Assembly (NCBI GenBank): GCA_947589285.1
Contig: CANPZV010000006.1
Span: forward strand, 1 to 47,856
Reading direction: 5' to 3'
Source: an uncultured Clostridia bacterium
Lineage (GTDB): Bacteria > Bacillota > Clostridia > Christensenellales > Borkfalkiaceae
Length of the DNA: 47,856 nt
This document shows positions 1,415 to 47,856 of this stretch, in pieces. Made by a program: the position numbers and the translations under genes. How positions within the stretch are numbered: position 1 is the stretch's first letter; the number at the start of each line of letters is the position of its first letter. The notes beneath the pieces are model-generated. The model was not told where the DNA came from. It did no database searches and saw only the letters and a list, made by a program, of their open reading frames with translations.

Positions 1415-1933
1415 ACCTCTGTGGCCCCCCTACCTCCCTCCCACGGAGGGGGCAAGAACCTCGTCGCCCCTTATAGGGGAGATGTCACGAAGTGACAGAG
1501 GGTTTCTCTCGGCTCCCCCTTGAGGGGGAGCTGGCGCGAAAGAAGTGAGCGACTGAGGGGGTGTCATTCTGATTCTGTATGACACCCCTTCCGTCTCGCT
1601 TCGCTCGACACCCACCACTCAAGGGGTGGGCAAGAACCTTGTCGCCCTTTATAGTGGAGATGTCACGAAGTGACAGAGGGGGTTCAAACCCCTTTCCCCC
1701 TGCGGGGGACTTCCCCTGAAAGGGGCAGCGAGGGAATCGCGTCTTTCAGAGCGAAGCGATGAATCCCGAGGAGGAAAGTACGGACTTCGTTCTTCAGGAT
1801 CCTTCGGGCTTCGCCCTCAGGATGACGCGGAGAGCGGAGGGGCGCGAGAGAGGACCCCCATGGAGAGGGCGCGCGAGAGGACCTCCATGGAGGGGGATAG
1901 AGCGGCACTCCGCGGAGGGGGCGGAATGAGCGG
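1415..1933. repeat. Repeat island 1 (families E, B, C, D plus an A hairpin)
   Basis: The gene-free gap between the CmpB-like gene and the hydrogenase operon is built from dispersed hairpin repeats seen elsewhere in the window. There is an E fragment rich in CCCCCTACC (1425-1455) and a B unit with CCCC-TTATA-GGGG and TGTCAC-GAA-GTGACA (1467-1500). A C unit with CTCCCCCTTGAGGGGGAG starts near 1523, a D fragment (CACCCCTTCC...) lies at 1582-1640, and a second B unit covers 1644-1735. An A-type hairpin (ATCCT...AGGAT) is at 1798-1822, then E-type GGAGGGGG blocks to 1920. No coding sequence is supported. Confidence 0.85.
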
Positions 1934-6323: not shown

Positions 6324-6690
6324 ATCCTGCCCCGCCCGCATTCTTTTTGCTCCAAGGGCGGCACGAGCGGCACAGCCGCGAAGTAGGCGTAGCCGAAGGA
6401 TCTCATAAACCTGCGGAGCAGACCCGCGTCATTCTGAGAAACGGAGGTAGAACAAAGTCCGATAAGCGGAACCGAAGAATCTCGCGGGGCGTTTCCATAG
6501 TGCGGCGAGATGCTTCGGGTCATCTCTTCCTGACTTCGTAATGCTCTCCTTCTCAGCATGACGCCGCTACCACAGACTTCGTTTGAGGGGATTCTTCGAC
6601 ACGCCGCTTGCGGCGGCGGCTCAGAATGAGCGTTTACCCTTGTCGCCCTTTTTAGGGGAGATGTCACGAAGTGACAGAGGGATTTTGCTC
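6300..6690. repeat. Repeat island 2 (long A unit, A hairpins, B unit)
   Basis: From left to right: an A-type hairpin with an expanded tip (ATCCT at 6326, AGGAT at 6397); a full A unit in inverted orientation with CATTCTGAG...GAAGAATCTC and GATGCTTCG...CTCAGCATG (6429-6570); a short A hairpin with the tip GCCGC-TTGC-GGCGGC (6589-6631); and a B unit (TCGCCC...GGGGAG and TGTCAC-GAA-GTGACA, 6640-6685). No gene is seen. Confidence 0.85.
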
Positions 6691-10774: not shown

Positions 10775-12240
10775 GAGTGCTTCTCGTCGCCCCTCATAGG
10801 GGAGATGTCACGAGCTTGCGAGTGACAGAGGAGTTTCAAAAACCCCTTTGGCCCTGCGGGCCACTTCCCCTGAAAGGGGCAGCGAGGAAAAAGGTGACCC
10901 ACCCCCCTACCCCCCTCCCATGGAGGGGGCATGCGCCGCGGCATCCCCATGGAGGGGGATGCGCCGCGGCACCCCCATGGAGGGGGTATCGCTCATCCTG
11001 AGGGCAAAGCCCGAAGGATCCCCTCAAACGAAGTCCGCAGGTCTATGAGATGCTTCGGCTACGCCTCAGCATGAGCGTGTGGGGCAACATGAGCGTGAGG
11101 GAGGCTTCGTTCATTCTGAGCGTAGCGAAGAATCCCCTCAAACGAAGTCCGCAGTTGCGGCGTCATGCTGAGAAGGAGAGCATTACGAAGTCAGAAAAAG
11201 ATGACCCGAAGCATCTCGCCGCTACCGTGCAAACACCCCGCGAGATTCTTCGGTTCCGCTTGTCAGACTACGTTTCGCCCCCGTTTCTCAGAATGACGCG
11301 GGGCTGCTCCGTGGGTCTATGAGATGCTTCGGCTACGCCTCAGCATGAGCGATTTTTCCGCTCATTCTGACCCTGAGCGTAGCCGAAGGGGAAGAATCCC
11401 CTCAAACGAAGTCCGTTGTAGCGGCGTCATGCTGAGAAAGAAAGACTTACGAAGTCAGAAAAAGATGATCCGAAGCATCTCGCCGCTACCGTGCAAACGC
11501 CCCGCGAGATTCTTCGGTACCGCTCGTCTGACTACGTTCCGTTCCCGTTTCTCAGAATGACGCGGGGCTGCTCCGTGGGTCTATGAGATCCTTCGCTACG
11601 CTCAGGATGAGCGTGAGGGAGGCTTCGCCTCAGCATGAGCCTCCCGCTCATTCTGAGCCGCCGCCGCAGGCGGCGTGTCGAAGAATCCCCTCAAACGAAG
11701 TCCGCGGTCGCGGCGTCATGCTGAGAACGGAAGCTGTACGAAGTCAGAAAGGGCCGACCCGAAGCATCTCGCCGCTACTATGGAAACGCCCCGCGAGATT
11801 CTTCGGTTCCGCTTGTCTGACTACGTTTCGTCCCCGTTTCTCAGAATGACGCGGGGCAGCTCCGCAGGTTTATGAGATGCTTCGGCTACGCCTCAGCATG
11901 AGCGTGTGGGGAGAGTGCTTCTCGTCGCCCCTTATAGGGGAGATGTCACGAGCAACGCGAGTGACAGAGGGGTTTTGAAACCCCTTTGCCCTCGCAAGCT
12001 CGGGGACTTCGCCTGAAAGGGGCAGCGAGAGAAGGCTTTCCTAAATCCCCCCGCCACAATTTTTAATTTTCAATTTTCAATTTTTAATTAAAATGCGGTG
12101 ACCCACCCCCCTACCCCCCTCTTCGGGAGGGGGTAAGAGCGGCACCCCCACGGGGCGGGGCATGCGCCGCGGCACCCCCACGAAGGAGGCGGCGGGGAGG
12201 CGGCGAGGGGGCACGGAGGGCGAATGGAAAAATATTTTAT
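10775..12240. repeat. Repeat island 3: the largest, with three tandem long A units
   Basis: This 1.5-kb gene-free stretch consists of repeats. There is a B unit (10783-10890) and an E unit of GGAGGGGG/CCATGG blocks (10897-10990). An A hairpin ATGCT...AGCAT spans 11050-11074. Three direct copies of the long A unit follow, starting at about 11110, 11361 and 11647. Each holds three hairpins in the order ATTCT, ATGCT, ATTCT, the last two clamped by GCGGCG/CGCCGC and CCCCGCG/CGCGGGG. A second B unit lies at 11921-12035, an AT-rich G element (ATTTTTAATTTTCAATTTT) at 12058-12092, and another E unit at 12097-12210. No open frame here resembles a protein. Confidence 0.9.
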
Positions 12241-16527: not shown

Positions 16528-17395
16528 TTCGAACATTTCTTTGCTCGCCCACCCCTTGCCCACCCCTTGAGGGGTGGGTGGCTCGCCGCCTTGCGGCGAG
16601 ACGGAAGGGGTGTCCTTCGAAAAGAAAAGTTCGAGCGAACCTTCCTCGTGCATCAATCACTTTGGTCTCGGAAGCGTTATATGCAATGACATTGTGGTTC
16701 CCGTAGGGTACCAAATGGGGTCGCCCACGGCGGAAGTGAATTCCGCCTAAGGTAAGGAAATTGGAATGACACCCCCTCAGTCGCCTTTGGCGACAGCTCC
16801 CCCTCAAGGGGGAGCCGAGAGTGCTTCCCTTGCCCACCCCTTGAGGGGTGGGTGGCTCGCCGCTTTGCGGCGAGACGGAAGGGGTGTCCTTCGAAAAGAA
16901 AAGTTCGAGGGGACGGCGTTGTGCATTCCATTACTTAATTACCCCACGCACTTCCGTACCCTGAAAGTCATTGTGATTCCCGTAGGGTACGGCGTCGCGA
17001 CACTGCGCGGTTTGCGCGGTTTTGCGTGAACGCAAAACCGTCGCTTTGAACGCGGGTCGCTCCTTTTCCCAAAAAATCTTGCTTTGCAATATTTTTTGGG
17101 ACGGGGAGACCCCGCCACGCGCAGTGATTTAGGAACGAACCCCCACCCCTACCTGCCCCCTTGCCAAGGGGGCAGGCGGGAAAACGGAAGCCACCGCCTC
17201 CCCCCTTATACCTGAGGGGGGCGACAAGGGGACAACGCGTCATTCTGAGCAAAGCGAAGAATCCCGAAGAACAAAGTCCGTAGGTCTATGAGATGCTTCG
17301 CTAACGCTCAGCATGAGCGCGGGCCAACGGGATCCTTTTCTCTTCCCGCTCATTCTGAGCGCAGCGAAGGTCCTTGGTCGATGGTACTAAAAATT
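16528..17395. repeat. Repeat island 4 (D, C, D, hairpins, E, A)
   Basis: A D unit runs from TTCGAACATTTCTTT (16528) to a matching inverted end near 16620-16635. It contains CACCCCTTGAGGGGTGGGTG and CTCGCCGC-CTT-GCGGCGAG. Its second half holds GGCGGAA-GTGAA-TTCCGCC (16723-16750). A C unit with GTCGCC-TTT-GGCGAC starts at 16780. A second D unit covers 16828-17000. Then come hairpins CGGTTTTGCG-TGAA-CGCAAAACCG (17017-17041) and a CCCAAAAAAT/ATTTTTTGGG pair (17078-17100), an E-like block (17140-17230) and A hairpins ATTCT...AGAAT and ATGCT...AGCAT (17241-17320). No gene is supported. Confidence 0.85.
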
Positions 17396-19702: not shown

Positions 19703-20240
19703 TTTCGAACATTTCTTTACTTGTCCACCCCTTGCCCACCCCTTGAGGGAAGAATTTTGCGTTCTGCCAAAGATTGATAATCTTTGGCGCAAAATTCTTA
19801 TAGCATTTGCCCATATGTTTCGGGCAAATGCCGCCCAAACGCGGGTTTCCACCCGCGTGCGAGGGTGGCTCGCCGCTTTGCGGCGAGACGGAAGGGGTGT
19901 CCTTCGAAAAGAAATGTTCGAGGGGTCGGCGGTGTGCATTCCATTACTTGATTACCCCACGAACTCCTGTACCTTGAAAGTCATTGTGGTTCCCGTAGGG
20001 TACCGAATGGGGTCGCCCACGGCGGAAGTGAATTCCGCCTAAGGCAAGGGAATGGGGAATGACACCCCCTCAGTCACTCACTGCGTTCGTGACAGCTCCC
20101 CCTCAAGGGGGAGCCGAGAGTACCTTCCTTGCCCACCCCTTGAGGGGTGGGTGCCCTGTAGGGGCAGAAGGGGTGTCGTTCTTAAATCGCCACCTCTGTC
20201 GCCCAAGGCGAAGGATAAGGGGAGCTTCCGATCAAAATGC
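19703..20240. repeat. Repeat island 5: D unit interrupted by an F element, then C
   Basis: A D unit begins with TTCGAACATTTCTTT (19703). It is cut after CTTGAGGG by an F element (about 19750-19862) and resumes with GGGTGGCTCGCCGC, reaching the inverted end AAAGAAATGTTCGA (19909-19922). Its distal half, ending in GGCGGAA-GTGAA-TTCCGCC, reaches 20045. A C unit (GTCAC...GTGAC; CTCCCCCTCAAGGGGGAG) spans 20065-20118, followed by another D fragment to about 20180. The stretch to the trmB start at 20262 shows nothing else. Confidence 0.85.
19750..19862. repeat. F element, copy 1 (nested in a D unit)
   Basis: The element holds AGAATTTTGC...GCAAAATTCT enclosing CCAAAGAT-TGAT-AATCTTTGG. Next come GCATTTGCCC...GGGCAAATGC and CGCGGG-TTTCCA-CCCGCG. 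A second copy at 45856-45968 is nearly identical over the first 85 nt. In that copy the last hairpin is GGCGGG-GAGCTA-CCCGCC, a compensatory change. Confidence 0.8.
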
Positions 20241-22339: not shown

Positions 22340-23272
22340 TTGCAAGCGGAACCTGCACTCGAAGTTCAACATTTGTCAAAATCATACGGCGACACCAAGG
22401 CGGTGGATGACATTTCTTTCACCGTCGGGAAGGGGTCGCTTTTTGCATTTTTGGGAGTCAACGGCGCGGGAAAGAGTACGACCATCAACATGATCTGTTC
22501 CATCCTCGCAAAGGACGACGGGAGGATCACCGTCTGCGGGCACGACCTCGACGAGGAGCCGTTTTCCGTCAAACGGGACATCGGCGTCGTGTTCCAGACG
22601 AGCGTGCTTGACAGGGAACTCACGGTCAGGCAGAATCTCGAGATCAGGGCCTCCTTTTACTCCCTCCCGAAGCAGGAAAAGAGGGAGACGATCGGAAGGA
22701 TCGTCTCGCTTTTGGATCTTTCGCCCATTCTGAATAAGCCCATTAAGGATCTCTCGGGCGGGCAGATGCGGCGGGTGGACATCGCCCGCGCCATGGTGCA
22801 TAAGCCCCGCCTGCTCATTCTCGACGAGCCGACGACGGGCCTCGACCCCAAGACGAGGCTCGCTGTGTGGTCGCTCATCGACCGTCTCCGCTCCGAGACG
22901 GGCATGACGGTGTTTCTCACCACCCATTACCTCGAAGAGGCCGAAAAGGCGCAGGACGTCGTCATCATGGAGAAGGGGAGGATCATCGCCCACGGCACGC
23001 CCAACGAGCTGAAAAACAGCTATGCGGACGACAATCTCATCGTCTACCGTGCGCAGGCAGACGGGTTTGAGGCCGCCCTGCGGGAAAAAGGGGTCGCCTT
23101 TTCCTATGACGGCGAGCGCGGCGCGTACTTCATCCGCATCACGGACATCGGAATGGCCAAGACGCTTTTGAGGGAGTTCGACGGCGAGATCTCCGACGCC
23201 GAGATCCGCAAGGGTACGATGGACGACGTGTTCCTGCGCGTGACGGGCAGGGACATGAAGGGGGAGGCATGA
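22340..23272 (+). CDS. ABC exporter ATPase (DrrA-like), system 2
   Basis: A 310-residue ATPase with Walker A GVNGAGKSTT, Q-loop VVFQTS, signature LSGGQMRRVDIARAM, Walker B ILDEPTTGLDP and switch TTHYLEE, plus the DrrA-type C-terminal domain. It is a clear paralogue of the 17.4-kb ATPase. I chose TTG 22340 because GGAGG lies 5 nt upstream; the open frame extends to an ATG at 22283 inside the preceding gene, without a ribosome site. Four-nt overlap region with the permease gene. Co-transcribed with the GT2 glycosyltransferase. Confidence 0.88.
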   Translation: MQAEPALEVQHLSKSYGDTKAVDDISFTVGKGSLFAFLGVNGAGKSTTINMICSILAKDDGRITVCGHDLDEEPFSVKRDIGVVFQTSVLDRELTVRQNLEIRASFYSLPKQEKRETIGRIVSLLDLSPILNKPIKDLSGGQMRRVDIARAMVHKPRLLILDEPTTGLDPKTRLAVWSLIDRLRSETGMTVFLTTHYLEEAEKAQDVVIMEKGRIIAHGTPNELKNSYADDNLIVYRAQADGFEAALREKGVAFSYDGERGAYFIRITDIGMAKTLLREFDGEISDAEIRKGTMDDVFLRVTGRDMKGEA

Positions 23273-24335: not shown

Positions 24336-24782
24336 CTGATGTGGAATTTATGCGTTTGTCGCGGGGGACATGGACTGCGTTCAGGGGATCCTTCGGGCTT
24401 TGCCTACTTCGCGGCTTTGCCGCTCGTGCCGCCCTTCGGCTTCATAAAGAACGTGCGGGCGAGGCAGGATGAGCGTAGTTTCCCCTTGTCGCCCCTTACA
24501 GGGGAGATGTCGAGGCGTAGCCGAGACAGAGGGGTTTATTCTGGTCGCGTCCCTTCGCCCCGCATCATTCTGAGAAACGGAGGTTGAACGAAGTCCGAGG
24601 TGTTGAACCGAAGAATCTCGCGGGGTATTGCAAAGTAGCGGCGAGATGCTTCGGGTCAGCTCTTCCTACCTTAGTACAACATTGCTTCTCAGCATGACGC
24701 CGCTACCTACGGACTGCGTTCAGGGGATCCTTCGGGCTTTGCCCTCAGGATGAGCGCGACGCGCTCAATTTTTAATTCTCAT
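24336..24782. repeat. Repeat island 6 (A with expanded tip, B, long A, A3, G)
   Basis: An A hairpin with an expanded tip (ATCCT at 24389, AGGAT at 24466) is followed by a B unit whose stem reads TGTC-GAGGCGTAGCCGA-GACA (24508-24528). An inverted long A unit (ATTCT...AGAAT; ATGCT...AGCAT) spans 24565-24706, and an ATCCT...AGGAT hairpin lies at 24727-24752. It ends in GAGCGCGACGCGCTC plus AATTTTTAATT, terminator-like on the plus strand. No gene is seen. Confidence 0.85.
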
Positions 24783-26191: not shown

Positions 26192-26388
26192 ACCGTTCAT
26201 TCTGAGGGCGAAGCCCGAAGGATCCCCTCAAACGAAGTCCCCTTGTCGCCCCTTATAGGGGAGATGTCGAGGCGTAGCCGAGACAGAGGGTGCCGCGGCG
26301 CAGTTCACAGTGCGCCGCACTGTTGAGCAGAATTGCGCCGCGGCACCCCCATGGAGGGGGCGAGAACGGCACTCCCATGGAGGGCGGT
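26192..26388. repeat. Repeat island 7 (A, B, E with an inserted hairpin)
   Basis: An A hairpin in which ATTCT (26198) faces AGGAT (26218), a pairing that needs a G-U pair. A B unit (26240-26290) with TGTC-GAGGCGTAGCCGA-GACA follows. An E unit is interrupted by a compound hairpin: GCCGCGGCGCA (26294-26304) and TGCGCCGCGGC (26334-26344) enclose CAGTGCG-C-CGCACTG. Confidence 0.8.
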
Positions 26389-27530: not shown

Positions 27531-28200
27531 AATTCAAAATTAAAAATTACGGGAGGGAATGCGGTGACCCACCCATGGAGGGGAAGGCCTACCCCCTTTG
27601 GGGGGAGGCTCCCGCGTAGCGGGTGGTGGGGGGGATGCTCATTCTGAGGGCGAAGCCCGAAGGATCCCCTGAACGAAGTCCGTGGGTTTATGAGATTCTT
27701 CGCTACGCTCAGAATGAGCGGGTTATTCTCTCGTCGCCCCTTATAGGGGAGATGTCACGAACAAAGTGAGTGACAGAGGGGTTTTGTACCCATTTCGTCA
27801 TGGTGAGCGTAGTCGAACCATCACATTATTTTTGCTGCGGTGACCCACCCCCCTACCCCCCTCCCATGGAGGGGGCATGTGCCGCGGCACCCCCATGGAG
27901 GGGGCAAAAGCCTACCCCTTGGGGGGGGAGGCTCCCGCGTAGCGGGTGGTGGGGGGGATTACCCTCTGCCTTGCCTTAGGCGGAATTCACTTCCGCCGTG
28001 GGCGACCCCATTCGGTACCCTACGGGAAACACAATGTCCTTGCATATAACGCTTCCGAGACCAAATCGATTGATGTCGATAGCACTTTCGCTCGAACATT
28101 TCTTTTCGAAGTCCCGCGAGATTCTTCGCTACGCTCTGAATGACGCGCGGGGAGGGCCTCCGCGCGTCCGCGGGGCGAGCAAAGAAATGTTCGAAATACT
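27531..28200. repeat. Repeat island 8 between ispDF and rqcP
   Basis: The 670-nt gap holds a short AT-rich G element (27531-27550) and an E unit with CCCGC-GTA-GCGGG (27565-27634). A hairpins follow: ATTCT...AGGAT with a G-U pair, then ATTCT...AGAAT (27638-27720). A B unit (27732-27782) and a second E unit (27838-27957) come next. Last is an inverted D unit (27960-28198), whose arms CGAACATTTCTTT and AAAGAAATGTTCG enclose an A hairpin. No gene or clear promoter is visible. Confidence 0.85.
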
Positions 28201-37904: not shown

Positions 37905-38330
37905 TCTGAATGAGCGATTTCTCTCCGCTCATTCTGACCCTGAGCTTGTCGAAGGGGAAGAATCCCCTTGGTTAATTTTCCCCCCCACCACCCGCTACGC
38001 GGGAGCCGTCTCATGCGGGTAGAGACCCGCATTCGGTCACCGTTCGCGCAGGATAATGCGCTCACTCACCGCAAAACGCAGCGCACAGCACACTGTGCTG
38101 ATGCGCAAGAATTGCGTTTTGCGACCCCAAAGGGGGTAGGCCTTGCCCCCTCCGTGGGAGGGGGGTAGGGGGGTGGGTCACCGCATTTTTCCCTCGCTGC
38201 CCTTACAGGGGAAAGGGGTTTGAAACCCCTCTGTCTCGGCTACGCCTCGACATCTCCCCTAAGAGGGGCGACAAGTATAAGGTTCCTTCACCACAATTTT
38301 TAATTTTTAATTTTCAATTTTTAATTAAAA
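37905..38330. repeat. Repeat island 9 (A, E with inserted hairpins, B, G)
   Basis: An A hairpin ATTCT...AGAAT (37930-37962) leads to an inverted E unit with CCCGC-TAC-GCGGG. That unit is interrupted (about 38009-38122) by TGCGGGT-AGAG-ACCCGCA and a compound hairpin with outer arms CGCAAAACGCA and TGCGTTTTGCG. The E unit resumes with CCCCAAAGGGGGTAGG to 38182. An inverted B unit (38190-38275) and an AT-rich G element (38292-38330) follow. Confidence 0.85.
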
Positions 38331-43419: not shown

Positions 43420-43796
43420 GTCTTGCCCCCTCCATGGGGGCGTTTTTTACCCCTCCATGGAGGTACCGCGGCGCAAGCCCCCTCCATGGGAGGGGGGTAG
43501 GGGGGCAACGGCAAGTCATGCCCACCTCAGTCACCTGCGGTGACAGCTCCTCCTCAGGAGGAGCCTTCTCGTTGCTCCCGCGTCATTCTGAGAAACGGGA
43601 GCCGAACGAAATCCGACGAACTAAACCGAAGAATCTCGCGGGGCAATGCACAGTAGCGGCGAGATGCTTCGGGTCAGTCTCTTTTGACTTCATACAACTT
43701 CCCTTCTCAGCATGACGCCGCGACTTAGGACTTTGTTTGAGGGGATTCTTCCCCTTCGGCAAGCTCAGGGTCAGAATGAGAGGGGACGCATTATAC
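43420..43796. repeat. Repeat island 10 (E, C, inverted long A, A)
   Basis: An E unit of CCCCCTCCATGG blocks (43426-43505) is followed by a C unit with GTCACC-TGC-GGTGAC (43527-43560). An inverted long A unit (ATTCT...AGAAT at 43584-43634; ATGCT...AGCAT at 43661-43712) and an A hairpin with the tip CCCTTCGG...CTCAGGG (43745-43777) follow. No gene is supported. Confidence 0.85.
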
Positions 43797-45282: not shown

Positions 45283-46055
45283 GGGATTCTAACTTCGCGC
45301 TTTGCGCTCGTGCCGCCCTTAGAGCAACAAGAATGCGGGCGGGGCGGTCGCTCCGCTCCCTCAGAATGACGCAGTATTCCCCCCCACCACCGCCTTCGGC
45401 GGAGCCTCCCCCCCCAAGGGGTAGGCTTTACCCCCTCCCGAGGAGGGGGGGTAGGGGGGTGGGCAACGGCCGATCATGCCCACCTCAGTCACCTGCGGTG
45501 ACAGCTCCTCCTCAGGAGGAGCTTCCTCGCTGCCCCCGCGTCATTCTGAGCCGAAGGCGAAGAATCCCGTGAACGTAGTCCCTACTTTCCTCCACGGGAT
45601 TCTAACTTCGCGCTTTGCGCTCGTGCCGCCCTTAGAGCAACAAGAATGCGGGCGGGGCGGTCGCTACGCTCCCTCTGAATGACGCGGTGTTCCCCCCCAC
45701 CACCGCCTTCGGCGGAGCCTCCCCCCCAAGGGGTAGGCTTTACCCCCTCCCGAGGAGGGGGGTAAGGGGGTGGGCAACGGCCGATCATGCCCACCTCAGT
45801 CACCTGCGGTGACAGCTCCTCCTTGGGAGGAGCCTCCTCGCTGCCCCTGTAGGGGAGAATTTTGCACTTCTGCCAAAGATTGATAATCTTTGGCGCAAAA
45901 TTCTCTTAGCATTTGCCCATATGTCTCGGGCAAATGCTGACCAAGGGCGGGGAGCTACCCGCCCGAGACAGTGGCGAACGGAGTGAGCCAAAGGGGTTTT
46001 GAAACCCCTCTGTCACTTCGTGATATCTCCCCTATAAGGGGCGACGAGAGAGGAA
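45283..46055. repeat. Repeat island 11: about 310-bp tandem duplication plus F and B
   Basis: The block starting GGGATTCTAACTTCGCG (45283) recurs at 45596 with few differences. Each block contains an A hairpin with expanded tip (ATTCT...AGAAT, the second copy with CTGAAT), an inverted E unit with CCGCC-TTC-GGCGG, and a C unit with GTCACC-TGC-GGTGAC. An F element (45856-45968) and an inverted B unit (45985-46050) follow. No gene is seen between lgt and gpmI. Confidence 0.88.
45856..45968. repeat. F element, copy 2
   Basis: AGAATTTTGC...GCAAAATTCT encloses CCAAAGAT-TGAT-AATCTTTGG, followed by GCATTTGCCC...GGGCAAATGC and GGCGGG-GAGCTA-CCCGCC. It is inserted behind CTGTAGGGG of a C/B-type repeat, whereas copy 1 (19750) sits behind CTTGAGGG of a D unit. 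Confidence 0.8.
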
Positions 46056-47754: not shown

Positions 47755-47856
47755 CCTGCGCTCATTCTGCCCCGCGCTTTGCGCTCATCCTGAGGTCCCA
47801 ACGGGGCCGAAGGATCTCATAAACCTACGGACTTCGTTTGAGGGGATTCTTCGGCT
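47755..47856. repeat. Repeat island 12, A family, running off the window
   Basis: An A hairpin with ATCCT (47788) and AGGAT (47812) is followed by CATAAACCTACGGACTTCGTTTGAGGGG and the start of the next A hairpin (GATTCTTCGGCT) at the right edge. Confidence 0.8.

Follow-up and report, generated by a model that had tools for sequence, protein, structure and literature searches.

Repeats of the CGTC-tagged REP superfamily were described by Di Nocera, De Gregorio and Rocco (2013) as hairpins with a CGTC, TGTC or CCTC tag, an AT stem base and a CCA-like tail, arranged mostly as head-to-head dimers that are often heterodimers, and not accompanied by a transposase (PMC3733652). According to the text of that study, they include Neisseria dRS3 and Rickettsia RPE-4 and RPE-6, have 8-9 bp stems with 4-5 nt loops, and occur in five listed phyla. 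Repeats with more than one stem mismatch were discarded in 2013 unless they were dimer partners. The authors suggested that the CGTC families may be "going toward extinction" or may be moved by several transposases, and left open both whether such repeats still form and what moves them (PMC3733652). Three further systems are relevant here. The hairpin of E. coli TnpA-REP is described as single-strand-specific, with irregularity of the stem being important (PMC8266576). Class 3 repeats of Y1 transposases are described as having a CnGA foot, with Acidobacteria among their carriers (Corneloup et al. 2018, PMC6006769). Finally, DNA mini-hairpins with GNA or GNNA loops are reported to be extraordinarily stable (PMC4686876).

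We analyzed a 47,856-nucleotide stretch of DNA from an uncultured Clostridia bacterium (GCA_947589285.1, contig CANPZV010000006.1), hereafter the window, together with its draft genome. Throughout the window recurs a hairpin that we call the A family. Read 5' to 3' on the strand bearing GA in both arms, each unit consists of a tag, AT N CT, GA, a tip hairpin, GA, AG N' AT and a tail, with N pairing to N'. In window copies, the tag is GCTC or CGTC and the tail is CCC or CTC. Tips are mostly small hairpins themselves (e.g., GCGTAGC, GGCGTAGCC and GGGCGAAGCCC), and some contain a second hairpin of the same design, such as CCCT-GA-G...C-GA-AGGG at 11364-11397. A first-pass annotation, made from the letters of the window, had described a frame recurring on both strands, and all eleven copies that it listed are present, offset by 0 to 4 bases. 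The frame recurs as described but was incomplete, in that conservation extends to a tandem GA facing GA, located between the stem and the tip, and to the outer tag and tail. Its three stem states are found, for example, at 11113-11133 (ATTCT/AGAAT, + strand), 11050-11072 (ATGCT/AGCAT, - strand) and 1799-1823 (ATCCT/AGGAT, - strand), and ATTCT indeed faces AGGAT at 26199-26223 and 27641-27665. By our own count from 37 pattern rows, the window holds 32 A-family hairpins, 16 per strand. The five rows left out were 6340 (both strands), 22727-22750, which lies within a gene and lacks a second GA, and two long matches overlapping members (11588-11636 and 47764-47815).

Single hairpins are located at 1799-1823 (- strand, C-G stem state), 26199-26223 (+, T.G wobble stem), 37931-37963 (+, with a hairpin of the same kind, CCCT-GA-...-GA-AGGG, nested in its tip), 45543-45565 (+, T-A stem state) and 47787-47815 (+, C-G stem state and GC-rich tip). 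Short inverted dimers, each with a + hairpin, a linker and a - hairpin, span 10995-11072 (hairpins 10995-11019 and 11050-11072, linker CCCCTCAAACGAAGTCCGCAGGTCTATGAG), 17242-17314 (17242-17262 and 17293-17314) and 27641-27715 (27641-27665, with the T.G wobble stem, and 27695-27715). Long units had been thought to carry three hairpins each. Instead, 11105-11910 consists of three tandem copies of a composite, each copy having four hairpins in the order small (+), medium (+), medium (-) and small (-). The first composite (11113-11346) comprises 11113-11133, 11165-11214 with a GCGGCG clamp, 11245-11294 with a CCCCGCG clamp, and 11324-11346. The second (11364-11608) begins with the nested-tip hairpin at 11364-11397, followed by 11429-11478, 11509-11558 and 11588-11608, and the third (11650-11899) begins with a small hairpin having a GC-rich tip at 11650-11686, followed by 11718-11767, 11798-11847 and 11877-11899. 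Partial long units, composed of a medium (+), a medium (-) and a final (-) hairpin, occur at 6431-6627 (6431-6480, 6510-6559 and small 6591-6627), 24567-24751 (24567-24616, 24646-24695 and small 24727-24751) and 43585-43777 (43585-43634, 43664-43713 and nested-tip 43745-43777).

Two additional repeat families were observed in the window. One, resembling CTCGTCGCCCCTTATAGGGGAGATGTCACGAAGTGACAGAGGG and apparently made of two side-by-side hairpins, shares islands with the A family (1456-1508, 1634-1686, 6635-6687, 11917-11969, 24481-24533, 26238-26290 and 27726-27778). The other, beginning GCTCGCCGCTTTGCGGCGAGACGGAAGGGGTGTCCTTCGAAAAGAAA, occurs at 16553-16640, 16827-16914 and 19840-19927 in copies that are 77-97% alike.

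Across the 1.29-Mb draft genome, the pattern CATNCTGAGN{1,25}GAAGNATC had 208 forward and 224 reverse matches (432 in total) versus none for the same pattern read backwards, so the A-family repeats are not a product of chance. A search with the stem frame returned 261 matches in 809 kb (22 contigs, window included), a few of which overlap other matches or fall within genes by chance. Although 83% of this sequence is coding, 252 of the 261 matches were intergenic according to a rough gene caller of our own, which missed rplL and whose miscalls account for some of the nine in-gene hairpins. Among 249 hairpins in this genome, the tag was GCTC in 169, CGTC in 65 and GTTC in 8, and the tail was CCC in 141 and CTC in 102; tails in the other sets were CTC, CTT, CTA, CCC, CTG and CCA. 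No Rfam family reached its gathering score at the island, and only a tRNA did so in the window.

In the commonest arrangement of neighbors, a + hairpin is followed by a - hairpin and both tags face outward; the 30-39 nt class held 52 such pairs. A linker motif related to CCCCTCAAACGAAGTCCGTRGGTYTATGAG was common to 31 of 38 short-tip dimers, and the dimers with this linker carry many different tips and stem states. Dimers with the same stem on both sides were rarer than under random pairing (5 of 31 distinct dimers versus 11.6, p = 0.003), and none with two equal tips was found. Differing partners may keep a long perfect palindrome from arising, or they may simply descend from an old heterodimer. 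All 16 medium-hairpin dimers are preceded by the left half of a small-dimer linker and most also have the right half, so that they probably trace to one event.

These units, at 75-260 bp, could be regarded as ordinary inverted-repeat miniature elements (MITEs) of a DDE transposase. Such an origin would account for the inverted ends, the single linker context of the medium dimers and the presence of TCCG on both sides of several medium-dimer copies. However, the shared context looks like one ancestral event, in which case TCCG is not an independent target duplication, and single hairpins and short dimers exist as well. Moreover, none of the eight genes found with hairpins within 400 bp on both sides had a transposase hit; seven had housekeeping or metabolic domains and one had no Pfam hit. 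The single-strand features considered below would also stay unexplained, and we consider a MITE origin quite improbable.

The variable stem pair was TA in 125 of the 261 matches, CG in 66, GC in 59, TG in 4, GG in 3, CA in 2, and GT and AC in 1 each; the fourth Watson-Crick state, A-T, was found in the relatives G024 and G067. We aligned, without gaps, 23 distinct hairpins with 9-nt tips from three genomes. Pairing was seen in 98.4% of cells versus 86.3% after shuffling, 21 cells were changed on both sides versus 7.1, and the covariation score was 0.284 versus 0.065, with 0 of 500 shuffles reaching the observed value in each case. Sliding the partners abolished the covariation signal. Neither pairs changed on both sides (2 versus 2.0) nor further pair types (4 versus 3.8) were more numerous than in shuffles. 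Two-sided change was confined to two of eight pairs, five being invariant and one departing by mispairs only. Hence, the covariation proposed in the first-pass annotation, and with it a folded strand, is borne out by pairing, double-changed cells and score, but not by the number of double-changed pairs or pair types. Five of the six combinations of outer (N) and inner (tip) states occur, implying that the two are not one inherited block. Tips and stems have been reshuffled among copies, so paired changes cannot be counted as independent events.

The one-sidedness of the wobble pairs suggests that folding takes place in the CTGAG strand. In the relative G052, 14 stems had T.G (with 12 distinct tips) and none had C.A. 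The bias was not significant in the other four sets (10 versus 3), and the pooled excess of T.G and G.T over C.A and A.C (24 versus 3) includes the 14:0 contributed by G052.

At the step between stem and tip, GA/GA was present in 402 of 507 stem-matched hits, as compared to eight hits together for the fully paired forms CC/GG, TC/GA and GT/AC among the 25 commonest classes. The reversed-sequence control gave 26 hits in all versus 507, where the stem-matched pattern is its own reverse complement and each site is thus counted on both strands. GA/GA is therefore conserved without Watson-Crick pairing, a mismatch that mere palindrome repair would erase. This bears on the proposal that nothing recognizes the hairpins, with template switching during replication matching the palindrome arms, and duplication and recombination spreading the copies. 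Local tandem duplications do exist (C3:37759-38686, C4:9252 and C9:24352) and tips have been exchanged between otherwise similar dimers, as this proposal would predict. Yet template switching would also repair GA/GA, which remains mismatched, and it leaves unexplained both the empty sites at many separate gaps and the same core in many phyla that are described below. We judge it very improbable.

Each GA dinucleotide is flanked by a pyrimidine and a purine, a context that allows stable tandem sheared G.A pairs in DNA. Loops were counted in the 208 matches (of 261) whose tips do not exceed 24 nt. C(GNA)G was the loop in 112 of 128 triloop copies, or in 12 of the 19 tips when each distinct tip is counted once, as compared to 173 of 1974 (8.8%) comparable hairpins elsewhere in the sequence. 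Of 27 triloops in other phyla that lie outside the 24-mer used for searching, 15 were GNA. These loops may in part be inherited. Together, the conserved GA/GA and C(GNA)G loops suit folded single-stranded DNA, and recognition in that form is likely. Of four hairpins folded, three had unremarkable energies (z from 0.67 to -1.11 across both strands, as RNA and DNA), and we therefore do not count folding energy in favor of this view. Only the copy with a GC-rich tip was stable (z from -2.07 to -3.20), and this copy and others favored a different fold under standard parameters. Separately, the GCTC tag and 5' half can form a competing hairpin, GCTCA-TNC-TGAGC (e.g., 11646-11658 in the window), which is the preferred fold in some copies and possibly constitutes a switch between two folds.

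Comparison with relatives revealed turnover. Across 73 genomes of one genus (63-99% complete), the number of matches per genome ranged from 0 to 437. In 1.16 Mb of the relative G045, 28 of 87 islands had flanks in the same order, one of which (C8:28521) is a chance match in a gene. The G045 gap was only 18-127 bp at 16 of the 28, shorter than ours at 21 and longer at 7, once by a single base. No family hairpin was present in the 11 short gaps inspected among the 16. The islands also contain other repeat families, rendering junctions of single-unit insertions unreadable, and none of the sites showed a clean single insertion flanked by a defined target duplication. The closest relative by rpoB-region DNA among 80 others was G052 (88%), of which 400 kb provided 17 islands with matching flanks. 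Eight of the 17 gaps lacked a strict match, and no hairpin identical to ours was found at the nine gaps where G052 also has hairpins. At C3:19856, the G052 hairpin is nested and similar, with the same stem state and orientation, and this pair may be inherited. The range in copy number, the empty sites and the different hairpins at the same gaps argue that A-family copies have spread recently in the genus and make it a test bed for such repeats. This turnover speaks against the extinction of CGTC-type repeats in this lineage. As a side observation, rplL and rpoB matches were 1.1-1.8 kb apart in three relatives (G019:C3:53383-54494, G047:C5:76914-78010 and G008:C158:3937-5695), much wider than in the nearest relatives of the window, of which part may be an unaligned rpoB start.

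The first-pass annotation attributed the covariation to a folded molecule that was probably RNA, and offered transcript stability, termination or mobile REP-like DNA as functions. As an RNA element, the hairpins would be transcript stabilizers, processing sites or terminators, and covariation would result from selection on RNA. Di Nocera et al. argue alike for REPs (PMC3733652), and the one-sided G-T wobble in G052 would fit as well. Convergent gaps were also the most often occupied (13 of 50, versus 5 of 51 divergent and 43 of 348 co-directional gaps). However, orientation was even among those intergenic matches (163 of 252) that have called genes on both flanks: 57 sense and 49 antisense in co-directional gaps, and 17/19 and 10/11 in convergent and divergent gaps, respectively. 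TTTT followed within 12 nt downstream of only 2 of 261 matches, versus 11 on the other strand, and GNRA accounted for one of six distinct tetraloops. Inverted dimers would place both orientations in any transcript, and a regulatory RNA tied to a gene would be expected to last longer than the absence of identical hairpins at gaps shared with G052 allows. Together with the predominance of C(GNA)G loops, these results leave the RNA assignment unsupported, and of the functions offered the evidence favors mobile REP-like DNA. We regard an RNA element as improbable overall, and some copies may have a role in transcripts. More generally, covariation in a repeat need not mean RNA, and folded DNA can be told apart from folded RNA by its loop type, its orientation and a comparison of orthologous sites.

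Classical REPINs are mobilized by a RAYT. Y1 transposase hits were detected in 28 of 121 relatives. There were none in the high-copy genomes G032 (437 matches), G052 (266), G031 (175), G061 (98) and G030 (95), one each in G043 (235) and G063 (76), and some low-copy relatives carry Y1 hits. With a RAYT profile, none of the 121 genomes exceeded the cut-off and 24 had a weak hit at E ≤ 0.01. Even at this threshold, no hit was obtained in the genome studied here (85.6% complete) or in G030, G031, G032, G043, G052 and G061. At 30 Y1 loci of the genus, four hairpin-like matches were found versus 4.2 in shuffled sequence, with no hairpins under a stricter pattern. As five of the richest genomes lack Y1, the 30 loci show no flanking excess and no RAYT exceeds the cut-off, we rejected RAYT/IS200 as the mobilizer in this genus.

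In other phyla, Y1 hits occurred in 39 of 50 hairpin-bearing genomes and none at E ≤ 0.001 in the remaining 11; Helicobacter marmotae had 377 pattern matches and no Y1 hit. At 30 Y1 loci, seven hairpin-like matches were found versus 4.8 in shuffled sequence, which is a weak control given that the hairpins are intergenic anyway. At 40 weaker-scoring loci, there were 27 versus 6.9 shuffled, with 15 loci having any hairpin and three having hairpins on both sides. Hairpins adjacent to the gene were clear in only two genomes among these 70 loci. In an Omnitrophota genome (G132), tandem-GA hairpins lie approximately 7 bp (L316), 43 bp (L302) and 183 bp (L315) from RAYT-like genes, and the RAYT cut-off is strict enough that L302 and L315 score below it. 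In an Anaerolineae genome (G167, L329), a RAYT gene over the cut-off (NF047646, 96.2 bits) is bracketed by a pair of identical direct repeats of 78 bp (1773-1850 and 2553-2630, spanning 1773-2630) that contain the hairpin CTGAGCATTGCCGAAG, without the AT stem base. This differs from CGTC repeats, for which no association with a transposase has been reported. These four Y1 genes with hairpins within 200 bp, three in G132 and one in G167, are leads rather than a rule.

The A family might be a classical RAYT-mobilized REPIN whose RAYT was missed or lies in unsequenced parts. Its architecture is that of REPINs (PMC3116915), and the genes in G132 and G167, the excess at weaker Y1 loci and the strict cut-off are consistent with this explanation. 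Against it stand the five high-copy relatives without Y1, the lack of any RAYT over the cut-off in 121 genomes, the Y1 loci of the genus at shuffled level and the many copies in H. marmotae without Y1. We regard a RAYT-mobilized element as improbable. With the known transposase missing, the mobilizer can be sought by comparing gene content between high- and low-copy species.

The core extends well beyond the genus. At least 119 stretches, belonging to named genomes of many phyla, contain the exact 24-mer TCATNCTGAGCGNAGCGAAGNATC, with Acidobacteria, Nitrospirae, Chloroflexi, Planctomycetes, Verrucomicrobia, Omnitrophota, Lachnospiraceae and Clostridia among the matches listed. A looser pattern had 8 to 479 matches in each of 50 such genomes; most of these greatly exceeded the backward control, and a few exceeded it only weakly. 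In a sample of 299 genomes from the phylum of the window, 47 had at least one match, mostly few each. One of these genomes (G273:C1:920779-922299) has same-strand copies spaced by approximately 330-430 bp, which suggests tandem arrays of a longer unit. Excluding the search 24-mer itself, 68 of 86 hairpins in other phyla were preceded by [CT]GTC (TGTC in 58 and CGTC in 10). The AT stem base was present in 208 of 246 other-phyla hairpins found by core and stem, in loci fetched with an AT pattern; AT is part of most of the search patterns and hence was not free to vary. The 24-mer also occurs in at least 120 stretches of viral contigs, some of which may be host DNA, and phages may be vehicles. 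It is conceivable, and we propose it only tentatively, that tandem-GA CTGA...GAAG hairpins form one superfamily spanning many phyla, recognized through a DNA-only fold of sheared GA and GNA, still multiplying, and moved by an enzyme other than RAYT.

Our preferred reading, to which we assign a probability of roughly 0.75, is that the A family is REP-like mobile DNA, non-autonomous and working like REP/REPIN elements. We base it on copy number, intergenic location, dimers, covariation, GA/GA, loop type, empty sites and turnover among species; from these we infer single-strand recognition, an enzyme, a transposition route and a lack of host benefit. The spreading unit is probably the inverted heterodimer, whose tags face outward and whose linker mostly measures 28-34 nt, and long units would be one inverted dimer nested in the linker of another. 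The hairpin would fold while the CTGAG strand is single-stranded, either on the lagging-strand template or in a nicked intermediate. This fold would comprise the AT-N-CT stem, tandem GA/GA in what are probably sheared G.A pairs, and a tip that is either a C(GNA)G mini-hairpin or of some other, mostly GC-rich, kind. An enzyme acting in trans on single-stranded DNA probably reads the fold and the tag. Selection on this recognition would maintain GA/GA and force paired changes in the stem, with tips being exchanged.

How does the A family compare to known systems? It has several properties of REPINs (PMC3116915), as described there, in that the inverted doublet is the unit, copy number is high and placement is intergenic. 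Unlike REPINs, it is not accompanied by a RAYT hit in the genome studied here, and no hit in the relatives exceeds the cut-off. It also differs from the GTAG REPs associated with RAYT, as described in PMC6006769, since its tags are GCTC, CGTC and TGTC, with no GTAG or GTRG. The stem irregularity created by GA/GA recalls the E. coli TnpA-REP hairpin (PMC8266576). By description, the CnGA foot of Y1 class 3 repeats would read CTGA here (PMC6006769). Many tips resemble the d(GCGNAGC) mini-hairpins in having a GNA loop closed by at least two G-C pairs; that work, as far as described in PMC4686876, concerned oligonucleotides and aptamers, whereas the A family consists of genomic repeats. Sequence and topic searches of one open-access library, including the text of PMC3733652, returned no description of the exact A-family core.

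The A family is closest to the CGTC-tagged REP superfamily. Resemblances include a CGTC or TGTC tag just outside the stem in members from other phyla (mostly GCTC here), complementary A and T as the first stem bases (with AT mostly fixed by our search pattern) and an unpaired CC- or CT-type tail that is similar but not identical to CCA. In both, inverted dimers with tags outside predominate, heterodimers are common and spacers are conserved, and both have intergenic placement, a patchy distribution and no associated transposase gene, at least within the genus studied here (L302, L315, L316 and L329 being exceptions outside it). The A-family stem is distinct in having 5 bp followed by GA/GA and a tip with its own stem, often with a 3-nt loop; it would conform to 8-9 bp stems and 4-5 nt loops only if G.A were counted as stem and the C-G of the tip as loop. 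Further differences are tips of very variable length with nested copies, and a core found in phyla beyond the five listed, although that list records where such repeats occur and does not strictly define them. Judging from its description in the text, the CGTC-2 family (stem 8, loop 5) may include the A-family core, and the mismatch filter applied in 2013 could have hidden a tandem-GA class. In view of the interrupted stem, modular tips and host range, we regard the A family as a variant of CGTC REPs rather than a plain member.
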